64,000 nucleotides of DNA from Sedimentibacter sp. MB31-C6 (GTDB lineage: Bacteria; Bacillota; Clostridia; Tissierellales; Sedimentibacteraceae), in contig NZ_CP142396.1 of the NCBI RefSeq assembly GCF_035934735.1, forward strand, positions 1,860,001 through 1,924,000, read 5' to 3'. The number at the start of each line of letters is the position of its first letter. The first letter of the stretch is position 1. Shown piece by piece: positions 36,142 through 58,895 of the stretch. The notes under the pieces are model-generated. The model had not been told where the DNA came from, made no database searches, and saw only the letters and a program-made list of their open reading frames with translations. A program made the translations under genes and the position numbers.

Positions 36142-36251
36142 TAATACTTTTATAATTGTAACGTAAATTCAAAGTATGTTTTTATAAATTTATATAACTC
36201 ATTTTCTTTCACCTGTTTGTATATCAACAATAATGTTAATTAAATGGGTTC

Positions 36252-36278
36252 ACGGAAACTCCACTTTAGCATAAGATA
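36252..36278 (+). promoter_or_regulatory. SigK-like sporulation promoter of dpaA
   Basis: AC (36252-36253), a 16-base spacer and CATAAGATA (36270-36278) match the mother-cell SigK pattern AC-16/17-CATAnnnTA. The expected start is near 36285, which lies downstream of the ATG at 36244 and upstream of the ATG at 36313, supporting the latter as the real start of dpaA. Confidence 0.65.
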
Positions 36279-36312
36279 TAACAGTGTGAAAAACTCTATA
36301 AGGAGGAGCGAT

Positions 36313-37176
36313 ATGGGATTGAAATATACCATATTAGGAGGAGATAAGAGAAGTTTAGAGCTTGGCAATTTGTTAGTGAAAGACGGAAATGATGTTTGTA
36401 TTTATGGGTTTGACAAGTTGGAGCAGTATAAAGACAAACCAGTAAGCTTAAATGAAGCAATTGAATATGCTGATGTTATTATAGCTCCATTACCATTTTC
36501 TACTGATAATATAAACGTAAATGCCCCGTTTTCAAATGAAGTAATTCAAATTGATAAGGTATTTAATTTGATATCTGAAAAGCAAATGATTATGGGTGGA
36601 AAATTTAGTATTGAACATGAAAAAAAACTAAAAAAAAGGAATCTTAAATCAGCTGATTATTTTAAAAGAGAAGAAATGCAGATTTTAAATGCAATACCAA
36701 CAGCTGAAGGAGCTATTCAAGTTGCAATGGAAGAAATGCCTGCTACTCTTCATAACTCCAATGTTATAGTGTTAGGCTTTGGGAGAATCGGAAAGATTTT
36801 ATCAAAGATGCTATATGGAATTGGAGCAAATGTACATGTGGAAGCAAGAAACTATAATGATCTTGCTTGGATAAAGAATTATAGCTATATTCCAATACAC
36901 CTAAAAGAATTAAAGACATATTTACCAAGGATGAACGTTGTTTTTAATACTATACCCCAGATGATATTAAATAAAGAATTGCTAAAATGCATTAATAGTA
37001 ATTGTATTATTATTGATTTAGCATCAAAACCAGGTGGAGTTGATTTAGAAGCTGCAAAAGAACTGGAGATAAAGACTATAACTGCTTTAGGTCTTCCGGG
37101 GAAGGTGGCACCAGTATCTGCCGCTACGGTTATTAAAGACACAATTTATAATATTATAGAGGAGTTGGAAGTATAG
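36313..37176 (+). CDS. dpaA: Dipicolinate synthase subunit A
   Basis: About 287 residues from MGLKYTILGGDKRSLELGN, the family start, behind AAGGAGGAGC. It has the Rossmann NAD(P)-binding segment NVIVLGFGRIGKILSKML near 153 and the C-terminal ASKPGGVDLEAAKE and LGLPGKVAPVSAATVIKDT typical of SpoVFA/DpaA. With DpaB it converts 4-hydroxy-tetrahydrodipicolinate, the product of DapA, to dipicolinic acid in the mother cell for loading into the spore. dpaB starts 2 bases after its stop codon. Confidence 0.95.
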   Translation: MGLKYTILGGDKRSLELGNLLVKDGNDVCIYGFDKLEQYKDKPVSLNEAIEYADVIIAPLPFSTDNINVNAPFSNEVIQIDKVFNLISEKQMIMGGKFSIEHEKKLKKRNLKSADYFKREEMQILNAIPTAEGAIQVAMEEMPATLHNSNVIVLGFGRIGKILSKMLYGIGANVHVEARNYNDLAWIKNYSYIPIHLKELKTYLPRMNVVFNTIPQMILNKELLKCINSNCIIIDLASKPGGVDLEAAKELEIKTITALGLPGKVAPVSAATVIKDTIYNIIEELEV

Positions 37177-57995: not shown

Positions 57996-58026
57996 TTGAC
58001 ATTGACGTAACGTCAAGGTGTACAAT
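57996..58026 (+). promoter_or_regulatory. Autoregulatory MerR/TipA-type promoter
   Basis: TTGACA (57996-58001) and TACAAT (58021-58026) are separated by 19 bases containing the perfect dyad TTGACGTAACGTCAA (58002-58016). This is the operator pattern of MerR/TipA-type regulators, and the MerR gene follows directly, so it should activate itself. Confidence 0.88.
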
Positions 58027-58048
58027 TATCTTGTCAGGAGGTGAAGAT

Positions 58049-58807
58049 TTGGAATATACAGTACAAAAGTTAAGTGGTTTAGCAGGTATAAGTACAAGAA
58101 CTTTGAGGTATTATGATGAAATTGGGATTCTTAAGCCTGCAAGAATTAATTCATCAGGGTATAGAATTTACGGACAAATGGAGGTTGATAGACTCCAGCA
58201 AATTATGTTTTATCGTGAACTTGATGTAAAATTGGAAATTATAAAAAAAATATTAGAATCACCTGGTTATGATGCTGTAACAGTATTGAAGGGACATCAT
58301 GAAAAACTCTTAGATAAAAGAAAAAAGCTTGATTTAATAATTCAAAATGTTGAAAAAACCATATCTATGAAAGAAGGAGGAAATATTATGTCTGATAAAG
58401 AAAAATTTGAAGGCTTTAAGCAAAATTTACTTGATGAAAATGAGAAAAAATATGGTAAGGAAACACGTGAAAAATACGGCGTTAAGCAGGTTGAAAAATC
58501 TAATACTAAGTTCAAAAACATGACAAAAGAACAATATGATGAAATAGAAAAATTAGGAAACGACATACTTAAAACCTTGAAGGCGGCAGTAGAAACAGGT
58601 GACCCTGCTGGTGAACTTGCACAAAAAACAGCAGATATGCATCGTAGATGGCTATCATACTTTTGGGACGATTATACAAAAGAAGCTCATGTTGGAGTTG
58701 TTCAAATGTATGTTGATGATGAAAGGTTTTCTGCTTATTATGATAAAGCGGTATCAGGCGCTACTGTTTTTTTAAGAGATGCAGTCAAAATTTATACAGG
58801 TATATAG
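58049..58807 (+). CDS. MerR-family regulator with TipAS antibiotic-binding domain
   Basis: About 252 residues from a TTG (LEYTVQKLSGLAGIS). The MerR winged helix spans 1-70 (STRTLRYYDEIGILKPARIN), a coiled coil 75-110, and the TipAS domain 120-252 (KYGKETREKYG, MHRRWLSYFWDDYTKEAHVG, YDKAVSGATVFLRDAVKIYT). TipA-type proteins bind thiopeptide-like drugs covalently and activate transcription. An AAGGAGG lies 6 bases before the TTG. An internal AAGGAGG before the ATG at 58388 (MSDKEKFEGF) would also yield the free TipAS domain. Confidence 0.9.
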   Translation: MEYTVQKLSGLAGISTRTLRYYDEIGILKPARINSSGYRIYGQMEVDRLQQIMFYRELDVKLEIIKKILESPGYDAVTVLKGHHEKLLDKRKKLDLIIQNVEKTISMKEGGNIMSDKEKFEGFKQNLLDENEKKYGKETREKYGVKQVEKSNTKFKNMTKEQYDEIEKLGNDILKTLKAAVETGDPAGELAQKTADMHRRWLSYFWDDYTKEAHVGVVQMYVDDERFSAYYDKAVSGATVFLRDAVKIYTGI

Positions 58808-58841: not shown

Positions 58842-58895
58842 AATTAAAGACAGTCCTCATTTTTCTAATTGTGAAATTGGGGACTGTCTTTAATT
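58842..58895 (+). terminator. Long stem after the TipA-like gene
   Basis: AATTAAAGACAGTCC (58842-58856) pairs with 58881-58895, with a partly paired inner region. It follows the stop codon by about 35 bases and has a short T run. Confidence 0.65.

Follow-up and report, generated by a model that had tools for sequence, protein, structure and literature searches.

A TipA-class gene of Sedimentibacter sp. MB31-C6 with a conserved internal start signal and a probable second, drug-trapping product

We analysed a TipA-class gene located in a 64,000-nucleotide stretch of the Sedimentibacter sp. MB31-C6 genome (contig NZ_CP142396.1, positions 1,860,001 to 1,924,000; hereafter, the window), which probably makes a short drug-trapping protein besides the full-length switch. 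The internal start of this gene is conserved as a nucleotide-level signal, and since relatives in several bacterial groups have kept it, the short protein is probably made too. The explanation that we hold with considerable confidence is that this drug-binding gene regulates itself and is translated from two starts, in which case the short form would serve as a drug trap. The features that bear on this explanation are given below, in coordinates of the window.

57996 to 58026, + strand: MerR-type promoter (TTGACA, 19-nt spacer with dyad, TACAAT)
58036 to 58044, + strand: Shine-Dalgarno (SD) sequence of the long form, AGGAGGTGA (anti-SD duplex energy −14.6 kcal/mol)
58049 to 58807, + strand: long form, comprising the MerR HTH, a coiled-coil helix and the TipAS domain (252 aa, 29.2 kDa, TTG start)
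58374 to 58380, + strand: internal SD sequence AAGGAGG (−12.2 kcal/mol; conserved in the family)
58388 to 58807, + strand: predicted short form, TipAS-like (139 aa, 16.2 kDa, ATG start)
58842 to 58895, + strand: hairpin 3′ of the stop codon (RNA fold −30.2 kcal/mol, z −5.67)

The first-pass annotation had described a TipA-like regulator, and this assignment was borne out by the domain composition of the encoded protein, which carries an N-terminal MerR HTH (residues 3–70; PF13411, 60.1 bits against a Pfam cut-off of 21.6) and a single C-terminal TipAS domain (residues 135–249; PF07739, 126.1 bits against a cut-off of 23.8). TipAS of Streptomyces lividans aligned with the C-terminal part of the protein, and the gene was the only TipAS match in the 3.02-Mb genome. 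The best solved relatives were the chains 3qao (Lmo0526-like) and 7cla (SkgA), both of which match over the whole length, and MtaN matched the HTH part. A tblastn search of viral contigs with the same protein retrieved no relative. With regard to the main start, the mechanical open reading frame begins at TTG 58031; this candidate was rejected, since it lacks an SD and since the −10 box leads one to expect transcription to begin no earlier than that codon. TTG 58049 was preferred because an SD is present and because it agrees with the position at which the relatives begin. The hairpin downstream of the gene is probably its terminator; its arm pattern occurs in one place only in the genome, and it was absent from the list produced by a terminator scan.

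The earlier claim that the drug-binding domain has an AAGGAGG and an ATG of its own was likewise confirmed: the motif lies between the HTH and TipAS domains, at a spacing of 7 nt from an in-frame ATG at 58388 (codon 114), and both frames share the stop codon ending at 58807. In order to follow this signal across the phylum, protein searches were run with the window protein in its family, order, class and phylum, the latter two being represented by even draws from the larger groups, and further loci were fetched. A total of 225 loci were scanned (227 minus L001, which repeats the window gene, and L226), 218 of which gave a match. After MerR proteins with weaker matches and truncated or broken genes had been dropped, 190 full-length genes were kept, the window gene included (score of at least 90 bits and frame of at least 230 aa); they belong to the phylum of the window, taken as Bacillota on the strength of those relatives that carry names. 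Codon 114 was ATG in 184 of them, the remaining six carrying TTG (two genes), GTG, TTA, ATT and GTA (one each), and no other alignment column was as rich in Met (0.968, followed by 0.832). The mean anti-SD energy at this site was −9.32 kcal/mol, with 95.8% of the 190 genes at or below −6, compared with −2.67 kcal/mol (11.4%) for 937 other in-frame Met codons and −2.89 kcal/mol (11.8%) for 44,257 other codon positions. The site was the best SD window of the gene in 88 of the 190 cases and ranked in the top five in 138. Main starts showed a mean SD energy of −11.8 kcal/mol (184 genes) versus −9.3 at the internal start, and the internal signal is therefore the weaker of the two. The mRNA was also less structured at the site, where folding of 50-nt stretches gave −3.4 kcal/mol versus −6.8, with a mean within-gene low-structure percentile of 0.80 (0.93 in the window gene). 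The conservation of the internal start thus lends good support to the proposal, also made in the first-pass annotation, that a long and a short form could be made from one gene.

The comparison was extended to other phyla, with a strong SD defined as one at or below −5. Bacteroidetes are reported to be naturally devoid of SD sequences (PMC6847099) and were represented by 25 Bacteroidota TipA genes (10 assigned by title and 15 from a phylum search in which 15 of 345 genomes matched). An ATG lay no more than two codons from the site in all 25 genes, and a strong SD was present in 11, versus 68 of 70 non-Bacteroidota loci for either feature (Fisher 2e-8, kinship uncorrected), some of these 70 appearing to repeat genes of the 190, as judged by identical junctions, and a few bearing titles that name no phylum. 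L288 and L326, which come from a single genome, were counted separately. In the Bacteroidota genes, the EGR/KGE peptide was often gone while the Met was retained. The 16 plasmid loci of Actinomycetota were less regular, with ATG in 11, GTG in two and no start within two codons in three, and with a strong SD in 13. A search of Pseudomonadota (5 of 249 genomes matched) yielded ATG and SD in four of five loci, one of which, L327, repeats L228; the fifth locus, L331, has no start codon at the site.

Nine genes without an intact HTH-TipAS frame were examined, and eight of them (L103, L210, L211, L212, L213, L218, L219 and L345) retained the internal SD and ATG, with SD energies of −8.3 to −11.6 kcal/mol and a TipAS frame of 139–142 aa; in L208, both ATG and SD were lost. 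This set leaves aside L209, L214–L217, L220, L221, L047 and L344, which show contig ends or frameshifts, and counts L048 and L219, the same gene, once. L103 keeps an HTH frame, which is closed by a stop codon immediately ahead of the junction, and in L218 a stop codon adjoins the SD. L345, on a plasmid of Enterococcus raffinosus, is annotated as a TipAS-only protein that begins at the internal ATG. The seven HTH-broken genes with near relatives had accumulated 100 synonymous versus 56 nonsynonymous codon changes on their side (totals excluding L208 and L345), a pattern that looks constrained, although these changes may predate the loss of the HTH; the corresponding values for L345, whose relatives are distant, were 2 versus 23, with no constraint visible. 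Gene decay or faulty assembly may account for some of these loci. Four genes (L210, L212, L213 and L218) have lost the HTH and retain the TipAS frame, its internal SD and ATG, and a promoter of the MerR type.

On balance, we lean towards the broader reading that selection has long maintained the internal start in TipA-class genes of many phyla, so that it is no peculiarity of Streptomyces, and that these genes have the free drug-binding domain among their main products, from which it would follow that most TipA/Mta/SkgA-type 'regulators' are drug sponges as well. The start signal would then follow the initiation rules of each group, the SD being kept where it is used and relaxed in Bacteroidota, and lineages that lose the HTH could persist with TipAS-only genes driven by the former promoter. 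Annotation usually assigns a single MerR regulator to a TipA-class gene. Should the free drug-binding domain be made from most such genes as well, a product is missing from the gene models, the effects of two proteins are confounded whenever Mta- or SkgA-type regulators are knocked out or tagged, and a sensor plus a sponge from one gene and one operator would represent a general defence strategy.

In an AlphaFold model computed from 35 sequences (mean pLDDT 87.6, pTM 0.51), a helix at residues 76–108 is followed by a linker (109–115) and a second helix (116–143). M114 lies inside the linker; a product starting there would be a clean domain that lacks the long helix. The window protein contains no Cys residue: within the aligned stretch, Tyr and Gly occupy the positions of the two Cys found in S. 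lividans TipAS. TipA captures its thiopeptide covalently through an active cysteine (PMC7762955); this residue, which marks a thiopeptide-capturing TipA, is absent here, and covalent capture of that kind is therefore not possible. Induction by thiostrepton-type thiopeptides, as proposed in the first-pass annotation, consequently found no support, and a ligand of this type was dropped for the lack of Cys; thiopeptides or other drugs may still bind without a covalent link. Among the 190 relatives, Cys near the drug-binding part occurs at residue 203 in 33 genes, at 205 in 25 and at 209 in 24, the last being the column of one TipAS Cys in the S. lividans alignment, whereas the TipAS part is free of Cys in 79. 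Members of the family may therefore differ in ligand chemistry.

Upstream of the gene, the −35 (TTGACA, 57996–58001) and −10 (TACAAT, 58021–58026) elements are separated by a 19-nt spacer that contains the perfect dyad TTGACGTAACGTCAA at 58002–58016; a spacer of 19 nt was present in 145 of the 187 relatives with a visible upstream region. When two or three mismatches were tolerated, the operator-promoter pattern had one copy in the 3.02-Mb genome, namely the gene's own promoter. No second match indicative of a wider regulon was found in the genome by this search, which weaker sites could escape, and the single match agrees with a gene that provides the defence through its own product. The self-activated MerR/TipA promoter put forward earlier was thus recovered as regards its MerR geometry and the uniqueness of the operator pattern, a motif that suggests self-activation.

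In the mechanism that we propose, the long form, starting at TTG 58049, would act as a MerR-type activator that takes up the drug in its TipAS domain and, once drug-bound, activates its own 19-bp-spacer promoter. Ribosomes would also enter the same mRNA at the internal SD and start at ATG 58388, yielding a free TipAS domain devoid of the HTH and of the long dimerising helix, a drug trap that would set the threshold. With a self-activated promoter and internal entry on the same mRNA, the drug would raise sensor and trap together. We infer that the internal start is used in this organism and that the predicted short form binds drug.

Other explanations were weighed against a second start that yields a drug trap. 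If only the long form were made, the Met of the linker and its small and charged residues (EGR, KGE) would be required by the protein itself, the SD-like DNA being a by-product. This is to some extent favoured by a null in which codons were resampled synonymously with the usage of genes of like GC3 (200 replicates), where amino acids alone gave a family mean of −7.69 kcal/mol (standard deviation 0.14), and by stretches elsewhere matched for tripeptide, which reached −8.01 versus −9.42 kcal/mol at the site (170 genes; some tripeptides with few stretches). However, the best replicate of the null was −8.10 and none of the 200 reached the observed −9.32, so codon bias exceeds what the amino acids need. 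The significance of this codon test comes from the family, with 17 of the 190 genes reaching p 0.05 singly and the window gene alone giving a non-significant result (−12.2 versus a null mean of −11.2 kcal/mol, p 0.52). At codon positions −5 to −2, Arg was encoded by AGR in 114 of 116 cases versus 1619 of 2949 elsewhere, and Gly by GGR in 194 of 209 versus 1441 of 2843 (kinship uncorrected in both). The corresponding values for 54 genes below 60% identity were 13/15 versus 312/732 (p 8e-4) and 57/62 versus 344/650 (p 2e-10), the kinship correction in these family tests being rough. Codon choice in the family thus appears to favour the SD motif beyond the amino acids. In addition, the motif is encoded by 76 different tetrapeptides in varying codon phases, and the Bacteroidota often drop the peptide and keep the Met. 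Taken together, we consider it quite unlikely that the long form is the only product.

It is highly improbable that the SD-like stretch merely slows elongating ribosomes for folding, with no translation start: although it sits exactly at the border of the two domains, pausing needs neither a start codon at a fixed distance, nor low mRNA structure, nor a Met retained without SD, all three of which were observed, and genes without an intact HTH frame nevertheless retain SD and ATG. Less easily set aside, while still rather doubtful, is a short form made chiefly for something other than drug sequestration, for instance for tuning the regulator or for another ligand-linked function. The absence of Cys and of a known ligand for the window protein fits such a role; however, TipAS and AlbAS bind drug in the published cases, and the genome offers no second operator match as a target.

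With regard to known systems, S. lividans tipA gives rise to two isoforms via two start codons, with TipAS predominant (PMC7762955), and two products are reported for AlbA. The window gene would join these dual-product cases, the useful addition being the wide conservation. It resembles TipAL/TipAS of S. lividans in having a MerR HTH and TipAS in one gene, two in-frame starts and, putatively, autoregulation, and differs in the lack of Cys, in its phylum and in that its short product is predicted from sequence. In contrast to Klebsiella oxytoca AlbA, which has two tandem TipAS-like domains (PMC6078987), its protein has one. The full-length domain order is shared with SkgA of Caulobacter, Lmo0526 and Mta of Bacillus subtilis, which are described as regulators, no short form being stated in the available portions of these sources. 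NolA of Bradyrhizobium, a nodulation regulator, is also encoded by a MerR-type gene with multiple in-frame starts, three proteins being made from in-frame ATGs (PMC5596368). Within the literature covered, which is incomplete, we did not find a family-wide demonstration of the internal start, and we do not claim its absence from print.

As a control, 11 MerR genes without TipAS were inspected, and in two of them (L018 and L031) a strong SD precedes an in-frame ATG placed much as in TipA; the trait may therefore extend beyond this class. In these two genes, the ATG lies near position 118–119 and the SD energy is −10.3 kcal/mol; internal starts have perhaps arisen in another MerR group, to which they would belong.

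Finally, AAGGAGG followed after 5–9 nt by ATG occurs five times in the window, versus 0.77 expected in shuffles. The four copies other than that of the TipA-class gene are at ORF starts, three at listed starts and one in frame inside a listed ORF. The latter, the mechanical ORF 36244–37176, has AAGGAGG and an in-frame ATG 23 codons inside it, which suggests that its true start is 36313.
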